DNA of 64,000 bases from Lysobacter gummosus (GTDB lineage: Bacteria; Pseudomonadota; Gammaproteobacteria; Xanthomonadales; Xanthomonadaceae), in contig NZ_CP011131.1 in assembly GCF_001442805.1 (NCBI RefSeq), positions 5,890,001-5,954,000 of the forward strand, in the 5' to 3' direction. This document shows, piece by piece, positions 12,979 through 45,938 of this stretch. Below the pieces are notes generated by a model. The model searched no databases. It saw nothing but the letters and a program-made list of their open reading frames with translations, and had not been told where the DNA came from. A program made the translations under genes and the position numbers. Position 1 is the first letter of the stretch. The number at the start of each line of letters is the position of its first letter.

Positions 12979-13055
12979 GCGCCTGTAGCTCAGCCGGATA
13001 GAGTAGTGGCTTCCGAAGCCATTGGTCGGGGGTTCGAATCCCTCCAGGCGCGCCA
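12979..13055 (+). tRNA. tRNA-Arg (anticodon CCG)
   Basis: The sequence folds as a full cloverleaf. The acceptor stem is GCGCCTG with CAGGCGC, discriminator G, and encoded CCA at 13053-13055. The D arm starts TAGCTCAGCC. The anticodon loop is TTCCGAA with CCG in the middle, and the T arm is GGGTTCGAATCCC with one flanking pair. The anticodon stem has one G-U pair at its base. The accessory island begins immediately downstream, the usual relation between tRNA genes and integration sites. Confidence 0.95.
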
Positions 13056-13489
13056 AACTCCCAGCCTCAACTTTTTCTACGCCTCGTCGCAACGACGAAA
13101 AAGGCCTTATTTCCGAGGCTTTTGGCGTTTTCCATTGGTCGGCGAGTTATCCACAGAGGGGCTGTTTGGTTATTTTTTCGCCTCTCTCCGGGCCTTTTTC
13201 TCCAAGCCATTGGTCGGCCGACCATTGCTCGCCCTTGAAAATCAGGCACTTACAGAGGCCGGTTTTTTCGATTCTTTGAGGCCGAGGCACCATCAAACCA
13301 CTTGATCCGACCAACCATTGAAGGGGCGTCGGCAATTGGTTCCACATTCGACTTGGGGGGCATGACTTAGCCGAACCTCTCAACGATTCTTCTTGTGATC
13401 AATCCGGCAGCCCGGACGTACACTGGAAGCCACGCCTCAGCCCGGCCTGCGGCCCCGGCCGTCACCCTAAACAATGGAAAAGGATGTCC
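13056..13489. other. AT-richer intergenic region with copies of a tRNA-derived word
   Basis: No gene is supported in this 430-bp stretch. The 14-mer AAGCCATTGGTCGG of the tRNA anticodon arm and variable region (13016-13029) recurs exactly at 13204-13217. Its 11-bp core CCATTGGTCGG recurs at 13132-13142, and GACCAACCATTG, related to the inverse, is near 13311-13322. These look like remnants of repeated recombination at the tRNA end, or a small repeat family. Confidence 0.6.
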
Positions 13490-13891
13490 ATGAACTCGGT
13501 TGCCCGCGTGTGCTCCCTGGTCATCGCCTCTGCCCTGGCTCGCGACGCCATCGCGGCGGACGGACGCGAGCTGTACCCCAGCTTCTTGGTCCACCCTCAC
13601 GCAGGAGCTGGGCCAGAGTTCAAATTCTCCGAAGCCTATGCCACCTCGGCATCGCCGGTGGTGATCACCGTTGTTGGACGGAAAATGAAGAAGTCCGACA
13701 GCAAGCACCGGACTAGCTTGCAAAGGCATTGGCTGTCGGTCCACCTGCCAGAGCGGATGGAGATCGTCATGCGCGAACAGGTTCTCTGCGATTTCAAGAC
13801 GGGTAACGACGCGTCGCGTTGCGACCGCTACGTCTTCGAAGGCGGTGGAAAGACACTGGACTACTACTTCTATCTGAATAACTGGCGCTGA
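13490..13891 (+). CDS. Secreted hypothetical protein
   Basis: A 133-residue protein that I do not recognise. Residues 1-23 (MNSVARVCSLVIASALARDA plus IAA) form a signal peptide, so the product is exported. The mature part is basic, has two cysteines (QVLCDFKTGNDASRCDRY) and ends DYYFYLNNWR. The ATG at 13490 was preferred to the one at 13484 because AGGA then lies at normal spacing. It is the first gene of the accessory island and runs in the same direction as the next two small genes, like gene cassettes. Confidence 0.7.
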   Translation: MNSVARVCSLVIASALARDAIAADGRELYPSFLVHPHAGAGPEFKFSEAYATSASPVVITVVGRKMKKSDSKHRTSLQRHWLSVHLPERMEIVMREQVLCDFKTGNDASRCDRYVFEGGGKTLDYYFYLNNWR

Positions 13892-13973
13892 CGATCGCAG
13901 ATCTTCGCTTTGGCGATCAATTTCGTGAACGAAGCCGCTTGGTGGCTCAGATCTGATGAGGGGTAGCGGGCTC

Positions 13974-14270
13974 ATGAAATATCGTTGCATCACCTTGGCA
14001 TTTATGACGTTCATTATTACGGCGTGTGGTTCGTCCTCAGTTGGGCATTCAGATACTCCGCAGACCGCGACCGGAGAAACGCCTATTCGCTACGTCATCT
14101 GCGGCCCCGGTGGCGATATGTGTTTTGTCGCTGCCAGGTTCAACGACTTTGATGGCTGTGAGAGCCACAAGAAATGGTCAGAGATGCTCTGTGATAGCAA
14201 GAGCACTCCTGGCCAGATGGCTTGCCGGGAAGATAGTCAAAGAATTGGCACTGCCTACTGCACCAAATAG
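13974..14270 (+). CDS. Small putative lipoprotein
   Basis: A 98-residue protein starting MKYRCITLAFMTFIITACGS. The hydrophobic stretch ends in TAC, compatible with a lipobox, so the product is probably anchored in the membrane through the cysteine. The mature part has further cysteines in YVICGPGGDMCFVAA, GCESHKKWSEMLC, MACRED and the C-terminal AYCTK. The even number suggests disulfides. No family recognised. An attC-like palindrome follows the stop codon, supporting a cassette origin. Confidence 0.65.
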   Translation: MKYRCITLAFMTFIITACGSSSVGHSDTPQTATGETPIRYVICGPGGDMCFVAARFNDFDGCESHKKWSEMLCDSKSTPGQMACREDSQRIGTAYCTK

Positions 14271-14330
14271 ACACAACAACAGACTCAACCGAAGCCGCTT
14301 CGCGGCTGGGCATATTTCAGGCGTTAGCCG
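14271..14330 (+). repeat. attC-like site (integron cassette recombination site candidate)
   Basis: The 60 bp after the lipoprotein gene contain ACTCAAC (fits the RYYYAAC core) at 14283-14289, a central palindrome GAAGCCGCTTCGCGGCT, and TTTCAGGCGTTAGCC ending near 14329. The order and the CAGGCGTTAG end resemble integron attC sites such as those of aadA cassettes. The last positions (GTTAGCC) do not fully fit GTTRRRY. No integron integrase is visible in the window. Confidence 0.45.
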
Positions 14331-14348
14331 CTTCTTGGAGAGCCCTTA

Positions 14349-14873
14349 GTGGCCGATATCGAATGGGGATCAATCGCCGACTGGGTATCTGGAATCGGCT
14401 CGCTCACCGCGGCAACAGTGGCGCTGTACGTCGCGCATTCGTCCCAGCGTGTGCGCCTACGCGCACACTGTGGCCATCGATTGATCATTGGAATCGACCA
14501 CCCGCGAGAAGACGTTTTTACCGTCACCGCTACCAACGTCTCTCAGCGCCCGACGGTCGTCACGAATATCGGCTTCACTTTTGGAGTGTGGCGCTGGAAG
14601 CAGCACGGAATCTTCAACTTCATACAGGATGACATCGGACATGGCATCCCCAAGCCCCTCGTAGACGGTGAGTCCGGAACCTGGAGTGCGCGCCTCGGAC
14701 CTGACAATCACTGGGTCAAAGATCTAGTTGAAAAACTCCAAGTCAACTGGTGGTCAGTTCTTACTTGGAGGATTCACATCCACACGTCGAATGGCGGGAC
14801 AACTACAGTGCGCCCCGAGAGGAACATTCGTGACATGCTTTTGGCTGAGATCGCTGCACGGAAAATTAGCTAG
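14349..14873 (+). CDS. Single-pass membrane hypothetical protein, cassette-like
   Basis: A 174-residue protein starting at GTG with TTGGAGAG about 8 nt upstream. The N-terminus WGSIADWVSGIGSLTAATVA followed by LYVAH is one membrane segment. The rest is a soluble domain with VFTVTATNVSQRPTVVTNIG (an Ig-like beta pattern), WSARLGPDNHW and IHIHTSNGGTTTVRPERN. Proteins with a W-SGIGSL-type membrane anchor and such a beta domain are common hypotheticals in mobile regions and integron cassettes. Function unknown. Confidence 0.72.
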   Translation: MADIEWGSIADWVSGIGSLTAATVALYVAHSSQRVRLRAHCGHRLIIGIDHPREDVFTVTATNVSQRPTVVTNIGFTFGVWRWKQHGIFNFIQDDIGHGIPKPLVDGESGTWSARLGPDNHWVKDLVEKLQVNWWSVLTWRIHIHTSNGGTTTVRPERNIRDMLLAEIAARKIS

Positions 14874-14880
14874 CAATCGG

Positions 14881-14916
14881 TTCAAGCCGAAGCCGCTTCG
14901 AGGCTCGACTAAGGCG
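14881..14916 (+). repeat. GAAGCCGCTTCG palindrome (degenerate attC-like element)
   Basis: Directly after the membrane-protein stop lies TTCAAGCCGAAGCCGCTTCG followed by AGGCTCGACTAAGG. The left arm matches attC-type sites, but no GTTA core follows. Related palindromes recur at 13931-13950, 20024-20053, 45893-45921, 56939-56960 and 57409-57438, so it also belongs to a dispersed repeat family outside the island. Confidence 0.5.
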
Positions 14917-15057
14917 CCGAATTTCACAGCGGAATTTGACGCGCCCACGGCTCCCAAGTTCAAACCAGTCTCTTCACGCCAGGGAACACAGAGCTACATC
15001 CAGGTATTTAGAGCAACTTAGGTCAGCCAGCACGCCATAGATCGTGAAGTCGCTTAC

Positions 15058-16164
15058 TTACACCCGCACGATCCCCGTGCCCGGCGTTCGCAATTTCTGA
15101 AGCCACTTAGAGATGCCTTCCCGATCGATCTCCTGGATAGGATATCCTCGCGTCGAAATGACTGTCCGAGCGCCAGGACTGAGCTCTGACGTTGTAACAA
15201 TCAGGCCGTAGTCCGCTCCTTCGTGCGTGACGTCGGCGTAGAGCCCTTTTACGACCACCTTTTCCACCTTCGCCTTCTGGCGCTTGCACTGTGCGATCAG
15301 GTGCGGATTACTGATTTCCGCGTCGCCTGCTTTCCATACGCGTACGTCAACTCCATCGTCATTGCTGCCCGGTCCTAGCTCTACGCGGAAGCCCTCGCGA
15401 TGGAAAAACTCAGCGGTCAGTTCTTCAAATTTTCGCCAATGCATCTCTGGCAACCGGTCTTCTTGGCGCTGGAGATAGTCAATAAAGCGCTGATCAATGA
15501 ATCTGCCCAGCTCAGGCGGCTCGTTGCTTCCTTTGAAAAGGTCAGCCAAGGGGACGCGAGAGTTCCATTCCACATAGCGAAGGCCAGTGTGCGGACTTAG
15601 CCGCTGGCCTCGATCAATTGCATCAAGCTTTTCCATCGCAATATCTAGGCCAACTGCGCCGAACGCTTTCTCGCTCGCATCCAGGAAGGGGCGCGGATCA
15701 ATCTTCCTGCTTCCCGCCTCTTTAGCGCGAGCCATCATCATCGGCATGATCTTTACAAAGAGGTCGAGCACGCCCAGGTATTCGGTCAAGTGCGTTCCCT
15801 GATACTTATGGTAAAGCCAAGCACCAGTGATGTCGCCATTGAACTGTTCCGCCGTGTGGCCAATCCGGTGAAGTAGGCGATAAAAGAGCTCGTCGTATTC
15901 CTCTGAGCATAAGCGAACGTGATTAACCTCTGAAGCCCGGATCAACTCCTTGTCGCGGAGGCTATCCAGATGCGTATAGAGGTCCTCTAGCGATAGAGCC
16001 AAACCGGATTTGTAGCCCGCGGTCTCCGAGAGGGTCTCCGCCAACACCTGCGGCGCAAATGTCATCCCACCCATTCCCCGGCTCCTTGACATGATCAGAT
16101 CTTCATAGAGTTCGATGATGCCACGCACCACGCGAGCATAGACAGAACAATGCGCCTGGAGCAC
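15058..16164 (-). CDS. Mrr-type restriction endonuclease-like protein
   Basis: A 368-residue protein whose C-terminal ~130 residues form an Mrr-like PD-(D/E)xK nuclease domain. The segment WRKFEELTAEFFHREGFRVE is followed by GPGSNDDGVDVRVW (catalytic Asp) and LIAQCKRQKAKVEKVVV (Q-x-K), then GADYGLIVTTSELSPGA. Such enzymes are often modification-dependent (type IV) nucleases. The N-terminal 240 residues are helical and unrecognised and may sense the substrate. No methylase gene is adjacent. The start may be at 16164 or at the methionine at 16092 (MSRSRGMGG). Confidence 0.8.
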   Translation of the reverse strand: MLQAHCSVYARVVRGIIELYEDLIMSRSRGMGGMTFAPQVLAETLSETAGYKSGLALSLEDLYTHLDSLRDKELIRASEVNHVRLCSEEYDELFYRLLHRIGHTAEQFNGDITGAWLYHKYQGTHLTEYLGVLDLFVKIMPMMMARAKEAGSRKIDPRPFLDASEKAFGAVGLDIAMEKLDAIDRGQRLSPHTGLRYVEWNSRVPLADLFKGSNEPPELGRFIDQRFIDYLQRQEDRLPEMHWRKFEELTAEFFHREGFRVELGPGSNDDGVDVRVWKAGDAEISNPHLIAQCKRQKAKVEKVVVKGLYADVTHEGADYGLIVTTSELSPGARTVISTRGYPIQEIDREGISKWLQKLRTPGTGIVRV

Positions 16165-16456
16165 CAGAGAAAAGTTCCGACCGATGGACTGCTCCGCGGT
16201 TCGAGCGCAGCGCAGGGCCTCCCAGAGATCCTACCGGGTGCCAGCTCTCAGCCCTTCAGTGATGTTTCGCGGGGCCAAAAGGGCGGGCGATAAACTTCGG
16301 GCTAGGTGACTCGACGAATTGAATTCTGGACCTGCAGTGGAATCGCGCACGTCAAGCGAGATGCTATGGCTGCTTCCGAATACTCAGACTGAAAAAGCAA
16401 TGACACGATCGAGTTCGATGTGCCATTCCTCAGCTTAACCGCAGGAGCGCCCCACG

Positions 16457-16550
16457 ATGCCCACTCCCGCAGTCGAGCAGTTTGGCGGCCCCTCTGCGAA
16501 CGCTATTCCCACCCAAGCTCACGCGCGATACGTCGTCGGTACTGCGTATC
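16457..16550 (+). pseudogene. Start of a gene cut by the IS3-family element
   Basis: An ATG preceded by GCAGGAGC opens MPTPAVEQFGGPSANAIPTQ and runs 31 codons to the left inverted repeat of the insertion sequence at 16551. Beyond the right end, CGCCTCGAAAAACAACAAG starts a short open stretch ending in TAG at about 17842. The two halves may belong to one small gene split by the insertion. The frame does not join cleanly and no target duplication was seen, so this is tentative. Confidence 0.35.
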
Positions 16551-16613
16551 TGAATCGCCCAGGGTTTCGTAGACATCTCGCAGCCATAAACTATGGCTTA
16601 AGTGGAGGTGGTT

Positions 16614-16886
16614 ATGAGCGCGAAGCGATACACCGATGAGTTCAAGATCGAAGCGGTCCGTCAGATCGTGGAGTACGGGCGGCCGGTGGCCGAAGTAGCC
16701 GAGCGCCTGGGCGTGTCGGTGCACAGCCTGTACGGCTGGCGGCGTCAGCAAGGCAAAAGCGATGTGGTTCGTCGTGTGGAAAAAGATCAGAACGCGGACG
16801 TGCGACGCCTGAAGGCAGAACTTCGGCGCGTGACTGAAGAACGAGACATCCTAAAAAAAGCCGCCGCGTACTTTGCCAAGGGGTAA
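16614..16886 (+). CDS. IS3-family transposase OrfA (HTH protein)
   Basis: Starts MSAKRYTDEFKIEAVRQIVE. It has a helix-turn-helix (GRPVAEVAERLGVSVHSLYG) and a C-terminal leucine-zipper-like coil (VRRLKAELRRVTEERDILKK). It binds the IS ends and forms the N-terminus of the OrfAB transposase when ribosomes slip -1 on AAAAAAAG at 16853-16860. I took the ATG at 16614; an ATG at 16602 is in the same frame. Confidence 0.9.
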   Translation: MSAKRYTDEFKIEAVRQIVEYGRPVAEVAERLGVSVHSLYGWRRQQGKSDVVRRVEKDQNADVRRLKAELRRVTEERDILKKAAAYFAKG

Positions 16887-16888
16887 AG

Positions 16889-17755
16889 GTGAAGTACGCC
16901 TTCATGAAGCAGCACGCCGACGAGTTCGGCCTGGCCGCAATGTGCCGTGTCTTGGGCATAAACCGCAGCGGTTACTACGCTTGGCTTCACGCGCCGGCCA
17001 GTGCGCGTGCACGCGACGACCAACGTCTGTTGGGATTGATCAAGCACAGTTGGTTGGAAAGCGGCTCGATCTACGGCCATCGCAAGATCACCACGGACCT
17101 GCGCGAGTTGGGTGAAACGTGCAGCAAACACCGCGTTGCGCGTTTGATGAAGCAAGAAGGGCTGCGCGCCATGGTGGGCTACGGCCGGCGGCCGCGGCCG
17201 TTGAGCGGGCCGATCGGCGCCGTCGCCAACAACGTGCTGGCGCGTGAGTTCACAGCGCAAGAACCCAATCGGGCCTGGGTGACCGACATCACCTACATTC
17301 GCACCCACGAAGGCTTCTTGTACTTGGCCGTCGTGCTCGATCTGTTCTCCCGCAGGATCGTGGGCTGGGCCACGCGTCCAACGCAGCACTCCGATCTGGT
17401 GCTGCAGGCGCTGCTAGCGGCGGTGTGGCGACGCAAGCCCGCGCCTGGTTTGCTCTTGCACTCGGATCAAGGCAGTCAGTTCACGAGCGAAGACTGGCAG
17501 AGCTTTTTGAAGGCCCACGGCATCGTGTGCAGCATGAGCCGACGCGGTAACTGTCACGACAACGCCGCGATGGAAAGCTTCTTCCAGTTGCTCAAGCGCG
17601 AACGGGTTAAGCAACGGATCTACCATACCCATGACAAAGCACGAGGCGATGTGTTCGATTACATCGAGCTGTTCTACAACCCCAAACGACGGCACAGTTC
17701 CAACAATGGCCTGTCCCCGATAGAGTTTGAAAGGCGGTACGCACTAAACGGCTGA
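16889..17755 (+). CDS. IS3-family transposase OrfB (DDE integrase)
   Basis: A 288-residue rve-type integrase domain: HTH_21-like MCRVLGINRSGYYAWL and IYGHRKITTDLRELG at the N-terminus. The first Asp is in RAWVTDITYIRT, the second in LLLHSDQGSQFTS, and the Glu in NCHDNAAMESFFQLLKRE. The C-terminus has FYNPKRRHSSNNGLSP. It lies in the -1 frame relative to OrfA and is normally made as an OrfAB fusion. Apparently intact. Confidence 0.92.
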   Translation: MKYAFMKQHADEFGLAAMCRVLGINRSGYYAWLHAPASARARDDQRLLGLIKHSWLESGSIYGHRKITTDLRELGETCSKHRVARLMKQEGLRAMVGYGRRPRPLSGPIGAVANNVLAREFTAQEPNRAWVTDITYIRTHEGFLYLAVVLDLFSRRIVGWATRPTQHSDLVLQALLAAVWRRKPAPGLLLHSDQGSQFTSEDWQSFLKAHGIVCSMSRRGNCHDNAAMESFFQLLKRERVKQRIYHTHDKARGDVFDYIELFYNPKRRHSSNNGLSPIEFERRYALNG

Positions 17756-17784
17756 CGACTGTCTACAAAAACCTGGGCGATTCA

Positions 17785-18111
17785 CGCCTCGAAAAACAAC
17801 AAGCCAGCCAAGAGTACAGTGATGACTCGGCGGACGAAGCCTAGACGATGATGGGCATCAACAAATCGAGGCATGGAGGAAGCCGACATTTCCAGTATGC
17901 CGACTAGGAATGCCAGCCCCATCAACCTCGCCATTGGGGCTCATCACACTACGGGCATCATCAAGCACTAGCATCGAAACGTTGGTATTTCGCCACCACC
18001 GGCGAATCAGCAATGCATCGGATCTCAATGGCTCTGTGCCGCATCCCTGGGATGCGGTTTGATGCCGTTCTGTTGCCCGACCTTTTAAATGCAATTGTTA
18101 GCGGCGTAGAG
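17785..18111. other. Intergenic stretch with a hairpin and a GTTAGC end
   Basis: No gene supported. At 18039-18057 lies the perfect palindrome CCGCATCCCTGGGATGCGG. It is followed at 18091-18103 by GCAATTGTTAGCG, which resembles the 3' end of an attC site. A weak third attC candidate on the plus strand is therefore possible at about 18031-18105. The gene that follows runs on the other strand. Confidence 0.35.
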
Positions 18112-19371
18112 TCAGTCCTTGAACTTGCCTACACGGCGACCGCAGGTCACGTAGCGAGCGCGCGAGCGCCATGCGACATCGAGACTAGGCTCACGGATGC
18201 GCTCGAACAGTTTAGCGAGGGTTTCGTCGTCGTCCGCATCACAGGCGAAGCTGGCGTAATTCTGTAAATTCCACTGATCCGGATAACGCGCGATCACGTC
18301 GTCAAAACCCTCGCGCATGCGCGCCCAGTTGGCCTCCGTCTCCAGAAACAGCTTGTCGCGAAACTGAGTCTGCGAGGCGTACCAATAGATGCGAGCGTAC
18401 ATCCCGTGCCCTTCGCTTTGCTGGGTCCGAGCAACCGCCTCGCTGGCGAAATGCTCGATCTGCTCGGCGCTACCGTTCCATTTTGGAAGCAGGTACTCCA
18501 ACATAGAGAAGTACATTTCGTAGTACGTCGGAAACTTGTTCAATCCTTCGTCGAAGGTCGAAAACGGACTCTTCTGCTGACTCTTGAGCAGATTTATCGT
18601 CAGCGCGTAGTACTCCGGCCGCGTCGAAGCGATGGCCTTCTCGGCATCGAGATATTCTTTGGTCTGACGCAACCATTCGAAGAACGGCTGCCAATTTCGT
18701 TTGTCCACGTTGGCGGAATAATCTCCGCCGCGGAACGCCCAAGCACGTCGAAACATGAGGTGTGCGCGCAGCAATCGCGCCAAAGCTGAACCCGGTCGGT
18801 CGTGCAGCCATTTCTGCAAGACTGCGTCGCTGCGCTGGTACTGTTCCGCGCTCCCTGCTTCGCCAGCCACCCCCTTGAGGCCTGCATACACGACACTGCT
18901 TTTCCACAGGCCACTGGGGGTACGCGCCGACCGTTGCGCAACGTCGTCGTAAAGCGCGTCGAGTTTGGCAAAATCGCCAGCAGCGAACAGCGCTTGCGCC
19001 TGCCCGGCAAGCGCTTCACGCATATCCAGTTCGGGACCATCTACCAGCGCCCGCTTCAGCTCTTCACGACGCTGCGCTTCGCGCTGTGGCGCGTTGCGTT
19101 GGTATTCAGCTACTCGCTGACGCACGTCTTCTGGGGTGGGATTGCGTAGTCGCTCCACCTGCCTGCGCATTTCTTCCACTCGGCTCTCAACGCGGGCTTG
19201 GCGTTCGACCATTGCGGCTTTTTGTGACGCGCTCCTCTGCTCTGCCGTTAAACGAGCCGCTTCTGAAGATGCGGATGGTTCAGCCCGGGTTTGCGCCTGT
19301 AGCGGGCCAACCAGTGCCAGCATCAGCGACACCACGAACCAGCTGCCAACCGCTTGGTGATTTCTGTCCAT
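18112..19371 (-). CDS. Exported DUF4034-like protein
   Basis: A 419-residue protein with a signal peptide (WFVVSLMLALVGPLQAQ). A charged coiled-coil region at about residues 40-110 (RQARVESRVEEMRRQVERLR, then AEYQRNAPQREAQRREELKR) is followed by a helical repeat domain: LAGQAQALFAAGDFAKLDAL, ARLLRAHLMFRRAWAFRGG, YYEMYFSMLEYLLPKWNGS, WARMREGFDDVIARYP, then FACDADDDETLAKLFERI. The domain resembles TPR-like DUF4034 proteins of xanthomonads. Function unknown. The DUF number is from memory. Confidence 0.65.
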   Translation of the reverse strand: MDRNHQAVGSWFVVSLMLALVGPLQAQTRAEPSASSEAARLTAEQRSASQKAAMVERQARVESRVEEMRRQVERLRNPTPEDVRQRVAEYQRNAPQREAQRREELKRALVDGPELDMREALAGQAQALFAAGDFAKLDALYDDVAQRSARTPSGLWKSSVVYAGLKGVAGEAGSAEQYQRSDAVLQKWLHDRPGSALARLLRAHLMFRRAWAFRGGDYSANVDKRNWQPFFEWLRQTKEYLDAEKAIASTRPEYYALTINLLKSQQKSPFSTFDEGLNKFPTYYEMYFSMLEYLLPKWNGSAEQIEHFASEAVARTQQSEGHGMYARIYWYASQTQFRDKLFLETEANWARMREGFDDVIARYPDQWNLQNYASFACDADDDETLAKLFERIREPSLDVAWRSRARYVTCGRRVGKFKD

Positions 19372-19591
19372 AACGAGCTTCCCTTCCCAGTTTAGTTTGA
19401 TCTGTAATGTGCAAATCGCTCCAGTCCATTCCTACGAGCGATATTTGTTTAGCACGTCAATGCTCGCGCGTTCTACGGAAAGACACAAGCTGATCACACC
19501 GGAATACAGTACGGCCGTTACCATCAGCGTTCATTAGGATGGTGAAGCGCGGACCCGATCGAGAGTCCCGACATGGGCGGCGCCTGATCTG

Positions 19592-19960
19592 ATGTTGCGT
19601 GTTGCACACCTAGGGAAACGCAACATGCGCAACACGACGTGATGGATGTGGAGGCACCCTGGTTGAGCCAGATTCGAGGAGAGAGATGCCCCTCCCCCCC
19701 CTCTTTTGCGCTGTGCAAGACCGGCGAACATCCGTGCCGCCTCCTCCTGCGTCAGATCGGACGGTAACCCGAATGTTGTTGCGTTGTTTCGTTTTCCTAG
19801 GGGCGCAACGCGCAACACGCAACAATCACGACCGTCGCCCTGACGATGTCCGGTGGCTGAAGATCGCGATTGGCCGCGCGATTACGCCTGCGTTTACCTC
19901 GACTCGCCGCCGGCAATGTTGCGCGTGTTGCGCTTCCTCATGCGCGCAACACGCAACAAC
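19592..19960. repeat. Three copies of a ~50-bp TTGCGTGTTGCG palindrome
   Basis: Three imperfect inverted repeats lie at 19592-19637, 19773-19824 and 19915-19960. Each has a left arm like TGTTGCGYGTTGCG, a short centre (CACCTAGGG, TTCCTAGGGG or CTTCCTCATG) and a right arm like GCGCAACACGCAACA. The gaps between copies are unrelated in sequence. They sit in a non-coding stretch (19372-20353) between the DUF4034-like gene and the propeller-like gene. Confidence 0.8.
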
Positions 19961-20353
19961 TCAGAGCAGTTCAGTAGGCCGACGAACGCTCGTCAAGCAG
20001 AGGTGACGCGGAACCCTTCTCTAGGCCGAGCCGCGAAGCGGCTCCGGCTCGGGCGAATTTCCAGGCCTGATTACTGCCTTGTGACTTTGTGCGCGGCCGT
20101 CTTTCAAAAAGAGTTGCTCTGTCAGTCTTCGGCGAAGTTGTTCCACCTCTTGGCGTGGATCGCCGGCTGCACTGTGTGGTTAATCACGGTCGTTCACTCA
20201 CAAAACCTCACGCGATGAGCTTGGTCACAGCAGAAATTGACTGAACGCAGGACGGTGTTACCGCTGGCGGCGTGATGCGCCGTTGCCGGCCGTGACTTCG
20301 ACCCCAACCCCCGGTGCCCAGCCGGGTGTCGCTCTGTCGCCGGAGAGTTTCTT

Positions 20354-21463
20354 ATGCGCCCCTCGACCATGCTCTTTTCTGTGTTGCTGCTCTACGCCGC
20401 CGCATCCGCGGCATTCGCGGCCAACCCGTACCCGGAGTCGATCCTTGTGCTCGATCAACTTGCCGGCTCGGAAGGCCGCGGCTATTTGTTCGCCGTGAAC
20501 CAGGCAAACGGCTATCGAAGGGTGGTCTCGGACTTCGCAGACCCCGCACAGGGCGTCCTTGGCGTCGACCCGAGTGGCATGACGCGGATACCTGCAGGCT
20601 TGCTGGGCGGAAATGATCGCTGGCTGATCACCGATGCCAACGGCGGGACCGATGGTCGCGGTGCGCTCTACGAAGTAGACCTGACCAGTGGCGCGCGAAC
20701 CCTGGTCAGCGACTTGGGCAATCCGCAACAAGGCCCGCTAGGGCTCTATCCCGAAGATGTCCTGTACATCTCGCCCGCGCTACTGGCCCCGATCAGTGGA
20801 ACGTTAGTGGTCGACCCCTTTGGCGGCACCGACGAACTCGGCGCGGTGTTCAAGATCTGGACGGATGGGCGCCGGACTTTGATGGCGGATCTCGGCGATA
20901 ACCACGGACCGAAGGGTTTCTATCCCACGGCTCTGGCATGGCGGCCTGGTCTGCTTGGACTGGGCGGCCATCTGCTGGTGGCCGACAGCAGCGCGGGAAC
21001 CAATCAGCATGGCGCCTTGTTCGCAATCGATCCCATCAACAAGGCACGGACGGTCTTGAGCGATTTCGGCGATCCCAACCAGGGATGGACCGATCCTCGA
21101 TCCGAAAGCGGGCCGACCTTCGTTCTGACCGGCCCCAACGGGAGCATTCTCGTGCTGGTCTCCCTGGGGGGAACCGATGCACGGGGGGCCGTCGTCCAGG
21201 TCGATCCCACATCGGGCTATCGCAGCCTCGTCAGCGATCTTGGCGATGCCAGCCAAGGACCGATTGGGGACGTGCCCGTCGCCATGAGCTGGTCCGCCAA
21301 CCAACAGTGGCTGTATGTCGTCGATGCGATGGCCGGCACCGACGCGAAAGGACTCTTGCTGCAGATCGATCCGGCAACCGGGTTCCGACAGGCGATCAGC
21401 AACTTCGGCATCTCCAGCCAGGGCCGCTTGGGCGAATACCCGAGTGCGGTCGAAGCCAACTGA
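20354..21463 (+). CDS. Secreted repeat protein, probably a beta-propeller
   Basis: A 369-residue exported protein. The signal peptide ends ASAAFA before ANPYPESILV. The mature part consists of about six to seven repeats of roughly 50 residues. Each contains a motif such as GGTDGRGALYEVDLTSGAR followed by TLVSDLGNPQQGPLG; variants are AGSEGRGYLFAVNQANG, AGTNQHGALFAIDPINKAR and AGTDAKGLLLQIDPATGFR. The repeat length and pattern fit a propeller of the NHL/SMP-30 kind. No catalytic residues recognised. GAGAG lies upstream of the ATG. It is followed by the secreted ubiquitin gene 69 nt downstream on the same strand, so the two may be co-transcribed. Confidence 0.78.
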   Translation: MRPSTMLFSVLLLYAAASAAFAANPYPESILVLDQLAGSEGRGYLFAVNQANGYRRVVSDFADPAQGVLGVDPSGMTRIPAGLLGGNDRWLITDANGGTDGRGALYEVDLTSGARTLVSDLGNPQQGPLGLYPEDVLYISPALLAPISGTLVVDPFGGTDELGAVFKIWTDGRRTLMADLGDNHGPKGFYPTALAWRPGLLGLGGHLLVADSSAGTNQHGALFAIDPINKARTVLSDFGDPNQGWTDPRSESGPTFVLTGPNGSILVLVSLGGTDARGAVVQVDPTSGYRSLVSDLGDASQGPIGDVPVAMSWSANQQWLYVVDAMAGTDAKGLLLQIDPATGFRQAISNFGISSQGRLGEYPSAVEAN

Positions 21464-21532
21464 CCCGTCCAGCACAATCACTCCATCGCCGATGCATAGC
21501 TCATGCGTAGCGATTCGCAAGAGGACAATCTA

Positions 21533-21841
21533 ATGACATCAACGACCTGTCGCCCGCTGATCCATCTGGCCGCACTGCTGTTGCTGATGGCCTCGTGGTC
21601 TTCGCATGCGTTCCCGCTCTACGTAAAGACCCTGACCGGAAAGACGATCACTATTGAAGTGGAGCCATCCGATTCGATTGAAAACGTAAAAGCGAAAATC
21701 CAGGACAGTGAAGGCATTCCTCCCGATCAGCAGCGCCTGATCGCTAAGGGAAAGCAAATGGAAGACGGCCGAACCCTCGACGATTATGCGATCCGGAAAG
21801 AGGAGACTATTCACCTCGTGCTGCGACTGCGAGGGGGCTAG
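21533..21841 (+). CDS. Secreted ubiquitin with free C-terminal LRLRGG
   Basis: A 102-residue protein: a 26-residue signal peptide ([20 protein letters not shown], then SWSSHA) followed by exactly 76 residues that align without gaps to eukaryotic ubiquitin. By hand alignment with human ubiquitin from memory, 61 of 76 positions are identical. Conserved are K6, K11, K27, K29, K48, K63, the L8/I44/H68/V70 patch and the C-terminal LRLRGG, which ends at the stop codon and needs no processing. Changes include K33S, F45A, A46K, N60A and residues 1-4 (FPLY). Signal peptidase cleavage after SHA would release a mature ubiquitin of normal length outside the cytoplasm. GAGGA precedes the ATG. The gene looks less GC-rich than core genes. 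No E1, E2 or deubiquitinase gene is visible in the window. Likely horizontally acquired. Confidence 0.95.
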
Positions 21842-22164
21842 CCTCTTGGAAGATGACGCCCAATCCTCTTTGGCATCAGGATCATTTACAGCGCACGGCA
21901 GGACCATTGCGTCTGCCGTTCCATCAACGCAGGGCCGGTGTTGAGCTCTGCGCCAAGGCGACGGTCGGCTCAGCTCCGCCAGCATGCTGGCGGGGCTGGT
22001 CCACAAGCGGAACTGGCGCAAGGCCCGCGAAGCAACGGGCAAGGACAGCAGCAAGCCGAATATGGTTACCGGCGGCCACGCCAGGAAAAAATGCCTGCGC
22101 TATTTCGACGTCGAGCAGCGCATAGCGTCCTTGATGCCGGGCGACTATCGCCTGACGATCGAGC

Positions 22165-22350
22165 ACCTGGACGAGCTTCCAGATGAAACGACGATGCCCA
22201 ACTTTCGCCGATTTCTCGAACGCCCCGAATCTGGCGGGCAATCTGCCCGATCGAGTAAGCGCGCGCTTGGCGCCTTGAGGTCAAAGTCTGCGCGCCGGGA
22301 CGATCGTGGATGCGGCGATCGTCGTCTCGCCGAGCTCGACCAAGAATTGA
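22165..22350 (+). pseudogene. Remnant of an IS5-type transposase
   Basis: Two fragments in different frames resemble IS5-family transposases: ELPDETTMPNFRRFLER (compare the family's PDETT...FRRLLE) at about 22174-22225, and RAGTIVDAAIVVSPSSTKN (compare GTIVDATII..PSSTKN) at about 22291-22347. The middle part and C-terminal half are missing. The rest of 21842-22794 has no supported gene. The remnant shows past insertion next to the ubiquitin gene. Confidence 0.55.
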
Positions 22351-22794
22351 GACGGCGAACGAAATAAAATCGAAAAGACCCTATCCGCAACTTTCAACCG
22401 GCAGGCCCAAGTAGTTGAACAGGATCCGTATCTAACTGCAGGCAGCCGCGAACTTGCAGCTGATGGAGGCTCCAATAGCCGGGGGACACGGACCTCGCGA
22501 GGAGGCGCTAATTTATGTCGCGCGGTGCGACGCGGCTCTTCGGCCCGCGCGATCAGCCCACGACAGTCATGGCGGATGCTGTACTTCCAATCAGGCAATC
22601 CAGCCTGGTCAGCAACGCCGCCCATTGCTCGCTGGTCGCACCTGCGCTTGTCGCGTCGCGTAGTGCACGGCTCCCACAGATTTGAAGCGCAACATCGTTC
22701 GGCTATTGCGTGGCGACGATGAATTCACAACGCGGCTGCCACCATCGCGGCGCCACCGAATTGGCGGTGGCGTCATGCATAGGGACTTCATGCC

Positions 22795-23178
22795 ATGAGA
22801 ACCCCGCACATTTGCAGCTTTATCGGTCTCGCCTCAGTGGCGTTTACGGGCAGCGCAATCGCGGGACATGATCCGCAATGCGTTGCCGAGTGGGATAAAT
22901 CCTCCGCCCACACGACGTGCACTACCCATGAATATTTCGTGCAAGAAGAAGGCAAGTGCAAGTTTCAAGGACGATGTGTTCGCCTTGAGCGGGACATCGA
23001 CGGGACGCGATTTACCACCACTGGCGGGCCGGGAGATGCCTATGCGGATTATTGGTATCTTCAGGATGTCAGCAAGCTCGTGAACTGTGATGGCAAGCTG
23101 AAAGTCGATACTTGCAAGAGAGAAGACACCGGCTCAGCCCCGTGGCCAGAGCGTTCAAGCAACTATTGGGATAGATGA
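22795..23178 (+). CDS. Secreted Cys-rich hypothetical protein
   Basis: A 127-residue protein with signal peptide MRTPHICSFIGLASVAFTGS then AIA, followed by GHDPQCVAEWDKSS. The mature part has six cysteines (QCVAEW, TTCTTHEYF, GKCKFQGRC, VNCDGKL, DTCKRED), consistent with three disulfides in an extracytoplasmic protein. It ends PWPERSSNYWDR. No family recognised. It lies between the ubiquitin and VMO-I-like genes on the same strand. Its small size, export and cysteines suggest an extracellular effector or inhibitor, but that is inference. Confidence 0.68.
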   Translation: MRTPHICSFIGLASVAFTGSAIAGHDPQCVAEWDKSSAHTTCTTHEYFVQEEGKCKFQGRCVRLERDIDGTRFTTTGGPGDAYADYWYLQDVSKLVNCDGKLKVDTCKREDTGSAPWPERSSNYWDR

Positions 23179-23321
23179 AAAGCCACTAGGCCCGCATGAG
23201 CCGCGATGCGTTTTCAACTGAAGAGGAATGGATCCACCACCTCCTTGCCTATCCAGTCGTTCAGCAAACGATGTGGTGCGCCTGCAGCGCACCGCATGTC
23301 AGTCATGCCTAGGGAGCCGTC

Positions 23322-23903
23322 ATGAAAAGGTTGATCACCCATTTAATCGGCGGGATTGCTATCGCCTTCTGCGGCTCAACTGCCGCACAAATTTTGGAAA
23401 GTCCAATCGCCACCAGTAACGGAGACTGGAAGCCATGGGTCTTCTGTCCGCCAGGGCAGTATGCATACGGAGTAAAACTGCTTGTGCAGCCCTATCAGGG
23501 ACAGGACAAGGACGATACCGGCGTCAATAACATCGCTCTGATTTGCTCCTATCCCGGGGATTACACAAAGGGGCATGAGGTTTTCACGGTCGGCGGTCTG
23601 CTCGGGCGATGGGGGACCGAGCACAACTGCTACGGTCGCGTCACGGGCATGCAGTTCCGGTCGGAACCAGACCAGGGTGACGGGGACGATACGGGCCTCA
23701 ACAATATCCGTATTTTCTGCAATGACAGCCGTGATGACTACATCCAAGCCGAAGGCAATGCATTGGGATACTGGACCAATGCAAGGCACTGCGATACTCA
23801 ACGGGCCGTCTGCGGCATTTCACTCCAGGTCGAGGCACCAAGCGCAGGCGATAATACGGCCGTAAACAACGTCAGGTTCGAGTGCTGCTCTATGTCTGAG
23901 TAG
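23322..23903 (+). CDS. Secreted VMO-I-like (vitelline membrane outer layer I) protein
   Basis: A 193-residue exported protein with signal peptide MKRLITHLIGGIAIAFCGST, then AA. The mature part shows three internal repeats of about 55 residues, each ending in a motif of the type DTGVNNIALICSYPG, DTGLNNIRIFCNDS and NTAVNNVRFECCS. Each is preceded by WxxWxxCPPGQYAYGVKL-like or WGTEHNCYGRVTGMQFR segments. Threefold GDDTALN-I-C repeats are typical of the VMO-I fold (beta-prism), known from egg vitelline membrane and eukaryotic secretions. AGGGAG precedes the ATG. Ligand unknown; the fold suggests carbohydrate binding. Confidence 0.8.
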   Translation: MKRLITHLIGGIAIAFCGSTAAQILESPIATSNGDWKPWVFCPPGQYAYGVKLLVQPYQGQDKDDTGVNNIALICSYPGDYTKGHEVFTVGGLLGRWGTEHNCYGRVTGMQFRSEPDQGDGDDTGLNNIRIFCNDSRDDYIQAEGNALGYWTNARHCDTQRAVCGISLQVEAPSAGDNTAVNNVRFECCSMSE

Positions 23904-24060
23904 TGGCAGGGGCCATATGGCCTCCTCCAACGCAAGCTATAAATTTTCTGCCCGCTCGGCTCTTCGGCCCCGGTGTTTTGCCTGCATAGCCGCTTGGCTC
24001 CAGGTGCCCGCTTCTTCCGCTCTCTCGGGAACGGGACGGACTACCTACTTAAGGAGCCCT

Positions 24061-24336
24061 TATGCCCAGCTGCGACAGCTTCGCGAACTCGCATTCACTG
24101 CCCAACAGGGACGCTGCTGTTACTGCGGCAGTGCCATGCGGCTAGCCTCTCCGTCCGAACTGGACCTGCGGCTATCCGCAGCGCTGATGCGGTAATGTAT
24201 CGCTGAGCATTTGCTCGCTCGCAGGGACGGTGGTCGAAACACCAGGGGTAACATCGCTGCCGCCTGCTGGCTCTGCAACCAGCGGAGACGTCGACGGAAG
24301 CATCCCCCTGTCCCTGGGCGGGCGCGAAGGAGCTGA
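24061..24336 (+). pseudogene. HNH endonuclease gene with an in-frame stop
   Basis: The frame encodes AQLRQLRELAFTAQQGRCCY, CGSAMRLASPSELDLRLSA, then a TAA at 24193-24195. It continues CIAEHLLARRDGGRNTRGNI, AAACWLCNQRRRRRKHP to TGA at 24334-24336. Together this is a small HNH nuclease (CxxC, AEHLLARRDGG, N, CxxCN). A C-to-T change in CAA, which would leave QCIAEH, explains the stop. The nearest ATG with an AAGGAG site (24061) is in another frame, so a second lesion near the start is likely. Read as a decayed gene. Confidence 0.7.
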
Positions 24337-24524
24337 TCGATGAGCGACAGCAGGAAGAAATATTGTGAGTCGGCTTTTCACTAGGAGTAGTTATCGCATG
24401 CGGCACTGCTAGCGGTGGCCTCACGTTCCTCGTGAGTTGATCAACCTCGTCTGGAACTCAGCACCAACATCAGCAAGAACGCCCACACGTATAGACGTTA
24501 TGGGCGTACGCAGTTGGGCCGGCC

Positions 24525-24859
24525 TCACGGTTTGGGAGCGACCTTGAGCGCAAGGCTCGCATCCTTGGTATCGAACCTCAAATAGTTCACGCCACAATCG
24601 GACTGCTTTCCCGCGACCCTCAAATATCGACCGTGCGGATCTCGGATTTTATAGAGATCGCCCTTATAGCTGCCCAGGTTTTGCGAGCCGAAGTCGTAGC
24701 TACCGGAGGGAATGAAAGAGAAGCGCTCATGGCCAGAGGATCCGGACGATCGAACGTAACCATCTGATTGGTACAAGTAGTGGCCGCTGTAGCTTGAACA
24801 TGATTCGCCCCGTTACGAAAGGCAACAACTCGCTTTCTGCACACCGCAATATCCGCCAC
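24525..24859 (-). pseudogene. Small hypothetical gene, probably frameshifted
   Basis: Two minus-strand frames join at a G-run near 24810. The upstream frame from a GTG at 24859 reads VADIAVCRKRVVAFRNG. The downstream frame reads GESCSSYSGHYLYQSDGYV, HERFSFIPSGSYDFGSQNLG, LYKIRDPHGRYLRVAG and ends KVAPKP at 24525. Adding one G would fuse them into about 112 residues. The short aromatic, Gly-rich repeats look like a beta-trefoil or similar binding domain, but I do not recognise the family. It starts about 35 nt from an attC-like site. Confidence 0.45.
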
Positions 24860-24889
24860 GCCTTTCGTCAGCCATGCCCCCTCGGATGC

Positions 24890-24952
24890 TGGTTAACGCT
24901 TGAAGTGACCAAAAGCCGCGAAGCGGCTTCGGCTTTCGCGTGAGTCCAGCAT
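24890..24952 (-). repeat. attC-like site on the minus strand
   Basis: Read on the minus strand, the segment contains GAAAGCCGAAGCCGCTTCGC, GGCTTTTGGTCACTTCAAGC and GTTAACC. The palindromic centre and the CAAGCGTTA end closely match integron attC sites of the aadA type. The frameshifted small gene begins just after it in the same orientation, as in a cassette array. The 5' core (RYYYAAC) is not clear. It marks the right edge of the accessory island. Confidence 0.45.
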
Positions 24953-24990
24953 ATTTATAGAACTCCAGCGATGCGCCTGCGGATTTCTCG

Positions 24991-25884
24991 TCAAGCGGAA
25001 GCGTAGACCTTGGCTTGAGCGATCTTGATATCGCGCACCGGCGAAGCTCCGAACATGCGGCCGTATTCGCGAGTGAATTGCGGAACGCTTTCGTAACCCA
25101 CGGCGTAAGCGGCATTGCTGGCCGAAGCGCCCTCCGACAGCATCATTCGCCGCGCTTCGATCAAGCGCAGTTGTTTTTGGAACTGCAGGGGAGACAACGT
25201 AGTAACAGAGCGAAAGTGCTGATGGAAAGTGGATGGGCTCATGCCTGCGGCCTCGGCAAGGTGTTCGATCCGCAGAGGGTGCGCATAATCGGATCGGATG
25301 ATCGCCACCGCCCGGGCCACGCGATGGGCGGTGCCCTCGGCCATGCCCAGATTGCGAATGGCCGGGCCGTGACGGCCGGACATGAGCCAGAAGTGCATCT
25401 CCCGCATCAACTGCGTTTTCAGAACGGGAACAGCCGCGGGGCGATCGAGCAGGCGCATCAGGCGCAGCGCGGCATTGGCGACTTCGTTTTCGGTTGGCTC
25501 TACCCGAACCGGAGCACCGATCGCTTCCCGTGCAATATCCATCTCAAGCGCGAGCGCTTCGATGACCGCCGGGTCCAGCTCAAACACCAGCGAGTAGTAC
25601 GGTGTGCTGACGTTGGCTCGGGTGATCTGGCTCACCGTGGGCACATCGGCAGTGATGAGCAGCGAGTCACCGGCGCCGAAATCAAACGTGCGATGGCCCA
25701 TCATCACGCGCTTGCTGCCTTGTACGACAAGCGCGATCAACGGACGCGAGATGGCGTATTGGAGTTCACTGACCTGGGTGGCGCGAATCGTCGCCAGTCC
25801 CGCGATCGGGGTGTCCGCGACGCCGTGCGCGTCAGAGTGAAAATCAGCATAGCGACGCACGGCGGTGAGCAGAGTTTCGTCCAT
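24991..25884 (-). CDS. AraC-family transcriptional regulator
   Basis: An N-terminal AraC_N-type sensory domain (LQYAISRPLIALVVQGSKRV, FDFGAGDSLLITADVPTVSQ) is followed by two helix-turn-helix motifs: LRIEHLAEAAGMSPSTFHQH and ASNAAYAVGYESVPQFTREY. The start MDETLLTAVRRYADFHSDAH at 25884 aligns with the family; the frame extends to 25941. It is divergent from the short-chain dehydrogenase gene at 26129 and very likely regulates it, a common arrangement for this subfamily. Confidence 0.88.
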   Translation of the reverse strand: MDETLLTAVRRYADFHSDAHGVADTPIAGLATIRATQVSELQYAISRPLIALVVQGSKRVMMGHRTFDFGAGDSLLITADVPTVSQITRANVSTPYYSLVFELDPAVIEALALEMDIAREAIGAPVRVEPTENEVANAALRLMRLLDRPAAVPVLKTQLMREMHFWLMSGRHGPAIRNLGMAEGTAHRVARAVAIIRSDYAHPLRIEHLAEAAGMSPSTFHQHFRSVTTLSPLQFQKQLRLIEARRMMLSEGASASNAAYAVGYESVPQFTREYGRMFGASPVRDIKIAQAKVYASA

Positions 25885-26128
25885 AGGCGGACGGTAGTCC
25901 GGGTCGGCCTGGGACGCAACCGTGAACGGAGGATCAGGCAAGAACCACCGGATGCAATTACTCGCGGTTATTGGCGTTCATGTCGCATCAGAATCCAGCC
26001 TCAGCCTTCGAGGACCGCGGCCTCAGTCGGAGAAATAGGCAAAAATATCGCAGGAACCGGCAATCGGCTCCGGGGCTCTGGCCAGACACTGGCCTTGTCG
26101 GATCGACACCACTTCACGGGAGCCCTAT

Positions 26129-26884
26129 ATGTCCACTATTTCGATCGTCACCGGTGCCAGCCGCGGCCTGGGCCGCAACACCGCATTTAGCATTGCCCGT
26201 CGAGGCGGCGATGTAATCCTGACCTACCGCAGCGGAGAAGCCGAAGCGCGCGAGGTCGTCAACGAGATCCAAACTCTGGGCCGCAAGGCGGTCGCCCTGC
26301 CATTAAATGCCAGCGACGTCTCGACATTCGCTGGCTTCACTGCGAGCGTCGGCGCAATGCTTAAGGATGTCTGGGGTCGCGATACCTTTGATCACTTAGT
26401 CAACAACGCGGGCCATGGCCACATGGCGGCTTTCGCCGAGACAACCGAAGCGCAGTTCGACGCGTTGTTCAATGTCCACGTCAAAGGCGTGTTCTTCCTG
26501 ACCCAAGCGCTGCTGCCGCTACTGGCCGATGCAGGGCGCATCATCAACTTGTCTTCGGGCCTGACTCGGGTGACCAGTCCCGGCTTCTCCGCCTACTCCA
26601 CCGCCAAGGGCGCGGTCGAGACTCTCAGCGTTTGCATGGCCAAGGAACTGGCCAGCCGCGGCATTACCGTCAACACCGTAGCGCCGGGCGCGATCGAGAC
26701 TGACTTCCTGGGTGGTGCGGTACGCGACATGCCTGAGCTCAACCAGCAGTTTGCCGGCATGACCGCGCTGGGTCGGGTCGGCGTACCCGATGACATCGGC
26801 CCGATGATCGCCAGCCTGCTGGGACCAGACAACCGCTGGATCACCGGTCAGCGCATCGAGGTCTCCGGCGGTCAAGTCATCTGA
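26129..26884 (+). CDS. SDR-family NAD(P)-dependent oxidoreductase
   Basis: A 251-residue classical short-chain dehydrogenase. The cofactor motif is TGASRGLG at residue 8, then NNAGHGHM, the active-site Ser in INLSSGLTR, YSTAK (YxxxK) and GAIETDFLGGAV. The C-terminus WITGQRIEVSGGQVI is family-typical. Substrate not deducible. GGGAG lies upstream of the ATG. Divergent from the AraC regulator. Confidence 0.9.
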   Translation: MSTISIVTGASRGLGRNTAFSIARRGGDVILTYRSGEAEAREVVNEIQTLGRKAVALPLNASDVSTFAGFTASVGAMLKDVWGRDTFDHLVNNAGHGHMAAFAETTEAQFDALFNVHVKGVFFLTQALLPLLADAGRIINLSSGLTRVTSPGFSAYSTAKGAVETLSVCMAKELASRGITVNTVAPGAIETDFLGGAVRDMPELNQQFAGMTALGRVGVPDDIGPMIASLLGPDNRWITGQRIEVSGGQVI

Positions 26885-27347
26885 TCTCGCCGCATTTGCA
26901 AACAGCCCTGCGTTGCTCGGTTACCCGTGGCGCGGCGATAGAGTGCTCCACGCTCCATCTCCAGTGAGTAAGCGTGAGGATGCGACTGGAACGGATATCT
27001 CGGACTACGCCGCTGTCTGAAAGCGACGATCTGCTCAGCAAATCGGCTTGGCAGTGTCCTGCGTGAAATGGATTCCCCACGAACCGGTAGACGGGCTTCT
27101 TCTTGGGGATTGGACTGCGCGCGCCCGAATCGCGTGATCACCTCGTTGAGATGGAGTCGCCGCATGATTCTTGCATGCTCAACCGGCCCCACACGAACTG
27201 CCGGCTTGTCGAGTGAGTTCTTCGTAGTGCGAACGCGGCGACGACGATCTGGCGCCAGCATCCAAGGTAATGGAGTCAGCGCGGCTTAGCGCCGCCGCTG
27301 TTGGCTGTCGGGTCCGCATGCTCTGATGAGCAAAGGCAAGGGCGCGC
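26885..27347. other. Intergenic region without a supported gene
   Basis: About 460 bp between the SDR gene and the large lipoprotein gene. No domain, RNA gene or convincing promoter was found; open frames here are short and lack ribosome sites. Confidence 0.5.
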
Positions 27348-44283: not shown

Positions 44284-44468
44284 CGCGGGTTTTCCGGAGT
44301 AAGTTCGAACATAGGATGCGACATCCGATCACGACGTTCAAACGCCTCAATCATTTCGGATCCAACACGACCGACATCGCTTCTCGTTGCCGATAGGTAT
44401 AGCAACCGCACCACGCCTCGGGAGCCGGTTGGAAAGACGGCGTCGCCAACGCCGTCGATGGTTGTCTC

Positions 44469-44502
44469 GCGGGCTGGGCCACTCGCCGTCAGCCCAGCCC
44501 GC
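44469..44502 (-). terminator. Terminator-like hairpin after the alpha/beta hydrolase gene
   Basis: GCGGGCTGGGC and GCCCAGCCCGC form an 11-bp stem around a 12-nt loop, about 10 nt beyond the hydrolase stop. There is no clear T-run, so termination is likely but not certain. Confidence 0.5.
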
Positions 44503-44511
44503 GAACGCACT

Positions 44512-45393: not shown

Positions 45394-45938
45394 CAGTTTT
45401 CTCCGCTACTGGCATCGTGGATAGGTATTTATGGATCTGGGGATAGAACGGCCCAACGTTTCTCGACTACAACCCATTGAGCGACTCGCCGCGGCCTGCA
45501 TATCGATCAGCCGCGTTCGAGCCGCCCTGAAACTGGCAGCAACGCGGTAACAAGAAAAAATGAGCCGGCTGTCTAAGCCCTGGCCGACGCAGCTTGCGAA
45601 CAAGTTCTGCTGCAAGTTCTGCTGGATATACCGCCCATTCCGATCCGGTTCCGAGACCGGGTAGACGGACTCCGATTGGATCACCGAATTTAACGAACAA
45701 GCACGAAAACTCACCGCGCTTAAGCGCGCCGCTGAATTTTCCTTGTGCTTACCAATTGTGCCGGGCGCATCGTCGCGATGCGAAGCGCAGCACAGTGCTC
45801 GTTGATGAAGCCGTATTCAACTCGGGCTCTCTCGCGGCGGTCGCCTATATACGGCGACGCAATTGCCTGAGCAGGCTTCGAACAGTTTATGCAAGCCGAA
45901 GCCGCTTCGCGGCTCGACCCTGGCGGAAGCGTTCTGCC
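45394..45938. other. Intergenic region with a GAAGCCGCTTCGCGGC palindrome
   Basis: About 545 bp between the alpha/beta hydrolase start and the H-NS stop. At 45893-45921 lies GCAAGCCGAAGCCGCTTCGC followed by GGCTCGACC, the same palindrome found in the island near 14900. A direct repeat of GCAAGTTCTGCTG occurs near 45600-45625. No gene supported. Confidence 0.5.

Follow-up and report, generated by a model that had tools for sequence, protein, structure and literature searches.

Ubiquitin is a hallmark of eukaryotes, and its main work depends on its C-terminal Gly-Gly end. The locus described here raises the question of what use a bacterium might make of a ubiquitin that is preceded by an export signal. 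In the 64,000-nucleotide stretch of Lysobacter gummosus DNA that was analysed (the window, to which all coordinates refer), an open reading frame of 26 + 76 codons on the + strand (21533..21841) encodes such a protein. The first-pass annotation had described it as an exported ubiquitin of 76 mature residues ending in LRLRGG, and the present analysis confirms that description. The mature part (21611..21838, + strand) aligns without gaps to human ubiquitin, the only eukaryotic sequence used for comparison, with 61/76 residues identical, and terminates in LRLRGG followed by a stop; in a codon table of the nine genomes considered below, codons 74-76 are CGA GGG GGC, encoding Arg-Gly-Gly (21830..21838, + strand). 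The protein scores 95.5 bits against PF00240, passing the curated cut-off of 25.4, has the beta-grasp ubiquitin fold, and yields a structure model that aligns to residues 1-76 of 1ubq. The preceding 26 codons (21533..21610, + strand) specify a likely signal peptide whose end, Ser-His-Ala before Phe1, had already been proposed and is supported by hydrophobicity and the -3/-1 rule. On this rule-based reading, and in the model alignment to 1ubq, the signal peptide directly abuts ubiquitin residue 1. A ribosome-binding-site-like AAGAGGA, recognized by reading the sequence, lies 7 nt 5' of the ATG (21519..21525, + strand), in a region that aligns with the second Lysobacter locus described below.

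The window protein thus shares with eukaryotic ubiquitin its fold, its length, the I44 face and the LRLRGG end, but differs from it in the signal peptide, the M1F/Q2P start, F45A, A46K, K33S and other changes. Lysines 6, 11, 27, 29, 48 and 63 are retained, and these, like the three substitutions K33S, F45A and A46K, had been read correctly at the outset. A further difference from the eukaryotic system is that no recognized gene for E1, E2 or a DUB adjoins the ubiquitin gene, there being no Pfam or NCBIfam match to these enzymes among the neighbouring ORFs examined. A search of the whole genome with PF00179 (E2) returned 0 matches, which is no evidence of absence as the controls also went unmatched. 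The ubiquitin of a second species, Lysobacter sp. ISL-50 (G014), displays 90% identity to that of the window, and each of the two carries 15 changes relative to the human protein. Changes common to both are M1F, Q2P, I3L, F4 to Tyr or His, T22S, K33S, F45A, A46K, L50M, N60A, Q62 to Arg or Glu, S65E and L67I.

It could be argued that a ubiquitin gene in a bacterial assembly reflects eukaryotic contamination or an assembly artefact, ubiquitin being otherwise confined to eukaryotes by reputation. The window genome, however, is a single contig of 6,056,618 bases and the signal peptide is of bacterial type, while the homologous unit of ISL-50 differs at ~45% of synonymous sites and seven more genomes, all of a second family designated f12, carry the gene. 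The one-contig genome and the ISL-50 copy make contamination very unlikely, to the point that we regard it as negligible; the search of other strains therefore upholds the initial view that the gene is genuine. Between the window and ISL-50 the mature ubiquitin shows a dS of 0.709 and a dN of 0.048, values from which the protein is judged to be under strong purifying selection.

The first reading had missed a conserved gene directly upstream of ubiquitin. This partner gene (20354..21463, + strand) encodes 369 residues with a likely signal peptide, judged by eye, and a probable six-bladed beta-propeller. Comparison of the window with 19.9 kb of ISL-50 sequence by blastn showed that the homology (20332..21916, + strand; 78.8% identity) comprises the gene pair plus ~20 nt before it and 75 nt after it, delimiting a two-gene cassette. 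One other place in the window is homologous to the ISL-50 region, at 44347-45459, which by eye is an alpha/beta-hydrolase-like ORF. The partner protein had no match in a Pfam search, but its TIGR03803 repeats reach 45.6 bits over the whole protein against a cut-off of 44, although no single stretch passes alone. AlphaFold2 returned a model with about six four-stranded blades (pTM 0.76, mean pLDDT 70.7), generated from an alignment of two rows, the other four of the five models having a mean pLDDT <45. In Foldseek this model matched the KEAP1 Kelch domain best, with an E value of 1.6e-9 at 14% identity and a TM by query of 0.57; by sequence, no solved structural relative was found at E up to 1. 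Neither member of the pair had a match to a defence system in PADLOC, and RNA structure or terminator signals at the cassette ends did not exceed those of shuffled sequences.

To what extent the pair is a unit can be judged from its distribution. Searches with PF00240 matched 8/299 genomes of the order, 10/233 of f12 and 2/395 of the Lysobacter family, and the window ubiquitin protein matched 2/20 genomes of the genus, the family and genus counts both including the window's own genome; together these searches gave 15 distinct genomes with a match. A stand-alone exported ubiquitin occurs in 9/15, namely the window genome, ISL-50, G309, G357, G360, G366, G367, G378 and G383, and in all nine of these genomes of the order the propeller gene lies directly upstream on the same strand. 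Within f12 the propeller was found in 7/233 genomes, exactly the seven with the exported ubiquitin; as these span four genera they do not represent seven independent events. A further and more distant copy of the propeller (35%) is present in G366. Counting against strict pairing, the propeller is present in 6/20 genomes of the genus, four of which (54-55% identity) lack ubiquitin. In these four ubiquitin-less Lysobacter loci (L027-L030) the ORF before the propeller is in 4/4 cases a small one that looks exported and contains an EPTYEC stretch; it had no match among ORFs of >=80 residues in the ubiquitin-bearing loci. No third gene was common to all ubiquitin-bearing loci when ORFs of >=80 residues were compared over 20-kb stretches in 8/9 genomes, G360 being represented by a short contig only and omitted. 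The remaining members of the 15 are G202, G216 and G239, whose exported ubiquitins carry C-terminal tails of other kinds, a propeller match being absent from the 2-3 kb examined (the G202 contig stops ~220 nt upstream of ubiquitin, placing any neighbour outside the sequence), G277, which falls below the cut-off, and G119 and G243, whose ubiquitin-like ORFs lack a signal peptide. The latter two belong to one f12 genus (L019 1495-1722, 75 residues; L023 1495-1734, 79 residues) and are possibly cytosolic bacterial ubiquitins. More widely, 5/369 genomes of a class sample and 2/398 of a phylum sample had any PF00240 match, with 2 and 2 over the cut-off, both counts including the window's genome; in the phylum sample G1185 matched weakly. 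The first-pass annotation had considered such proteins very rare in bacteria. Scarcity holds for the genus (2/20), the family (2/395) and f12 (7/233), but with additional cases in Bacillota and Bacteroidota the occurrence is better termed patchy.

Where the two genes occur together they appear to have a shared history. When the nine genomes, which are related so that the comparisons are not independent, are set against one another in 36 pairs, synonymous divergence of ubiquitin and propeller is alike (Spearman 0.57, p 3e-4), with ubiquitin/propeller values of 0.39/0.41 for G360/G357, 0.54/0.52 for G309/G378 and 0.45/0.53 for the window/ISL-50 pair. For nonsynonymous differences the correlation is 0.86, and ubiquitin has the smaller value in 36/36 pairs. 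The alike synonymous divergence and the lower nonsynonymous divergence of ubiquitin indicate that the two genes have most likely moved as a pair and that ubiquitin is under the tighter constraint. Repeated fresh acquisition of ubiquitin from eukaryotes by each genus was set aside because the synonymous divergence of the two genes is similar; single-gene ubiquitin trees, which are weakly supported, were kept out of dating or rooting any transfer. In f12 the ubiquitins match the human protein at 72, 72, 70, 70, 68, 68 and 63 of 73 residues (n=7), and their dS is >1.4 or not computable in 18/21 pairs.

Among the nine cassette ubiquitins 27/73 positions vary, and none of these falls within the ten residues that we take to be the I44 face and its rim (P 0.0066 for random placement, uncorrected, the I44 face being one of six patches examined). 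The I36 and TEK patches are likewise invariant, while variation occurs in the F4 and D58 patches and at lysines 29 and 33, each of these lysines being changed in 2/9 proteins. Interaction with the propeller could by itself account for the constraint on ubiquitin.

The C-terminal tail has not been kept throughout. Codon 74 is a stop in 3/9 genomes: TGA in G378, where GGC GGC follows, TGA in G360, and TAG in G366, where GGA GAC follows. LRLRGG is intact in 6/9, including G309, G357 and G367, which are the same-genus relatives of G378, G360 and G366, respectively, and the propeller tree groups G309/G378, G357/G360 and G367/G366 with support of 0.80, 1.00 and 0.94. The simplest reading is that Arg-Gly-Gly has apparently been lost on three separate occasions. 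The three tail-less ubiquitins are otherwise 68-70/73 identical to the human protein. As the 3/9 members without the tail remain under constraint over the rest of their length, it is unlikely that what the cassette members share is a function in conjugation through Gly-Gly. The unchanged I44 face, the dispensable Gly-Gly and the linked propeller make non-covalent binding the simplest function, and this, rather than conjugation, is probably what the members have in common. The natural pairs with and without the tail provide ready-made natural experiments on the role of the ubiquitin tail.

How might such a protein act? From the computed features we infer its release from the cell, its binding to the propeller, the kind of target and its effect on that target. 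In this scheme the ubiquitin gene follows the propeller gene in a small accessory cassette whose two products are both exported. Most likely the two proteins would pass through the Sec pathway out of the cytoplasm, and signal peptidase would cleave just before ubiquitin residue 1. The folded ubiquitin of 73 to 76 residues would then be released, perhaps through a type II secretion system or in vesicles; a gspD gene is present in the window genome, which makes release by type II secretion possible. Outside the cell the protein would operate as a ubiquitin mimic, its I44 face binding non-covalently to proteins that recognize ubiquitin, and the propeller would be its dedicated partner, serving as carrier, holder or protective binder. 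WD40 propellers are reported to bind ubiquitin in eukaryotes (PMC5663479). With respect to the target, we lean towards eukaryotic microbes or hosts that the bacteria meet, such as fungi, amoebae and plants, over rival bacteria, as the near-eukaryotic f12 sequences point to a eukaryotic target; the 15 changes in each of the Lysobacter ubiquitins count against this reading. That the cassette encodes an exported, non-conjugating protein of some kind is likely. The full statement, an exported ubiquitin mimic with a propeller partner and a eukaryotic target, is more tentative and is proposed at somewhat less than even confidence. A little more speculative is the view of a mobile cassette in which the propeller is a dedicated ubiquitin-binding partner and selection has held the eukaryotic face nearly unchanged over long divergence, whereas the conjugation end has been given up on three or more occasions, for a purely non-covalent extracellular use.

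The proposal of a non-covalent mimic directed at eukaryotes must be weighed against other explanations. The earlier suggestion that the protein feeds into eukaryotic enzymes through Gly-Gly implies an effector that enters eukaryotic cells, is charged by E1, becomes attached to proteins and upsets the ubiquitin system. The intact LRLRGG in the window and 6/9 members and the six lysines kept in the window protein accord with conjugation. The loss of Arg-Gly-Gly from 3/9 proteins that remain nearly human in sequence, while same-genus relatives keep it, and the changes at K29 and K33 argue in the opposite direction, and we know of no route for the cassette ubiquitin into a eukaryotic cell. The part of the suggestion that concerned a eukaryotic-type ubiquitin with an export signal stands, but its use as a conjugatable effector is weakened and appears quite improbable. 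A second possibility is that ubiquitin is simply an exported beta-grasp domain that serves adhesion, surface architecture or periplasmic binding and is not aimed at any other organism. Consistent with this, ubiquitin fronts larger exported proteins in Cohnella, Ruminococcus, Subdoligranulum, G216, G617 and on a Ruminococcus albus plasmid. The cassette ubiquitin, in contrast, is not joined to other domains, and 9/9 members retain the I44 face unchanged, while the Ruminococcus and Subdoligranulum proteins are changed at L8; a purely structural role is accordingly improbable. It is very improbable, too, that the protein is the precursor of an antimicrobial peptide, from which cleavage frees a C-terminal fragment such as Ub65-76. 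Although a review counts a Ub65-76-like fragment and an oyster ubiquitin without Gly-Gly as antimicrobial (PMC10892293), the constraint spans the whole fold and 3/9 members end at residue 73.

The strongest competitor, which takes up the toxin idea of the first-pass annotation, derives from BfUbb, the product of Bacteroides fragilis ubb, and proposes that the cassette ubiquitin enters sensitive cells of the same or related strains and blocks a target there, the propeller acting as a protective or receptor-like partner. BfUbb is exported, has a mature form of 76 residues and in pure synthetic form is inhibitory to some strains of B. fragilis, and beta-propeller genes also lie beside ubb (PMC5705921). 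The patchy presence of the cassette is as expected for weapons, the loss of Gly-Gly in 3/9 members matches the described Gly-Gly-less tail of BfUbb (PMC3352274), and the Lysobacter ubiquitins have diverged from the eukaryotic sequence; this divergence and the BfUbb precedent keep an antibacterial role open. In contrast, BfUbb is given as 63% identical to human ubiquitin (PMC3352274), compared with 63-72/73 for the f12 members, and seemingly needs no immunity protein (PMC5705921). Bovine ubiquitin, moreover, is reported as inactive on the B. fragilis strains that BfUbb, which is potent on some strains, inhibits (PMC5705921), making the near-eukaryotic f12 proteins look less antibacterial. On balance a BfUbb-like antibacterial function is rather unlikely, and a non-covalent mimic with a eukaryotic target is the reading we prefer.

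BfUbb nevertheless remains, as first proposed, the closest published case. It shares with the window protein a signal peptide and a 76-residue mature form starting at ubiquitin residue 1 (PMC3352274, PMC5705921), and it is encoded by an accessory gene with beta-propeller genes nearby (PMC5705921). It differs in having Cys as its last residue and no Gly-Gly, where the window protein has LRLRGG, and is identical to human ubiquitin at 48/76 positions rather than 61/76 (PMC3352274). BfUbb is described as inhibiting ubiquitination in vitro (PMC3352274), and antibacterial activity is reported for BfUbb only (PMC5705921). The tight propeller-ubiquitin pair is a feature of the cassette; the B. fragilis propellers are likened to it by their reported presence beside ubb only (PMC5705921), which in print is not counted among the defining features of BfUbb. 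Among the matches listed in a search of the open-access literature (titles and abstract starts, subscription papers lying mostly outside), there was no Lysobacter ubiquitin or propeller-ubiquitin pair. The findings suggest that ubiquitin has been adopted by some bacteria as an exported tool with no need for chemical attachment. Near-identical bacterial ubiquitins that bear export signals, are linked to one partner and exist with and without Arg-Gly-Gly make testable the role of an exported ubiquitin in the absence of conjugation. They likewise allow a test of whether BfUbb is an isolated case or belongs to a practice more widespread among bacteria.

Bacterial ubiquitin-like conjugation operons and Pup are cytosolic systems with their own enzymes. 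They resemble the cassette in providing a ubiquitin-like protein or protein tag in bacteria, but the window ubiquitin is set apart by its export signal and the propeller gene next to it. Exported ubiquitins beyond the cassette occur in Bacillota and Bacteroidota, most of them fused to other domains. Flavobacterium collinsii has a stand-alone exported ubiquitin ending in LRTPPCN, and an exported ubiquitin is also found in a Flavobacteriaceae MAG. In the multi-domain proteins of Cohnella, Ruminococcus, R. albus pRUMAL01 and G617 the leader is joined to ubiquitin residue 1, as in the window, but other domains follow, whereas the window ubiquitin stands alone. In all 19 exported ubiquitins read by eye (nine cassette members and ten others) the leader extends as far as residue 1 of ubiquitin, the preceding residue being Ala in 17/19, Gly in 1/19 and Ser in 1/19. 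For the multi-domain proteins, a tblastn search with the propeller covered loci L003-L007 and found no match. In G617, which belongs to another family of the class, ubiquitin is followed by a fibronectin type III-like domain and a C-terminal membrane tail, by eye (L045 229-1191). On pRUMAL01 the exported protein has ubiquitin as its first domain and a longer tail (L058 3947-4687), and genes for a phospholipase C domain protein and a dockerin lie near it. The only plasmid relatives are this record and a Pseudoalteromonas one, the latter by annotation only. A viral or phage origin was rejected, there being no relative in viral contigs or phages and no PHROG match.

The surroundings of the cassette in the window have features of their own. 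From 13001 to 27000 the GC content, in 1-kb steps, is 0.54-0.62, compared with 0.65-0.72 in the first 13 kb and a mixed 0.58-0.72 in the remainder. This segment also contains an IS3-type transposase (16602-17755) and an Mrr-type restriction ORF (15058-16164), and in view of these genes and its low GC it may be an island. Downstream of ubiquitin, an ORF at 21984-22367 gives a partial match to glutamate decarboxylase (TIGR01788, 46.3 bits, far under the cut-off of 380.4) and is probably a gene remnant. An exported-looking ORF at 23322-23903, 1.5 kb downstream of ubiquitin, matches vitelline membrane outer layer protein I (VOMI; PF03762, E 1.1e-40), a family best known from animals.
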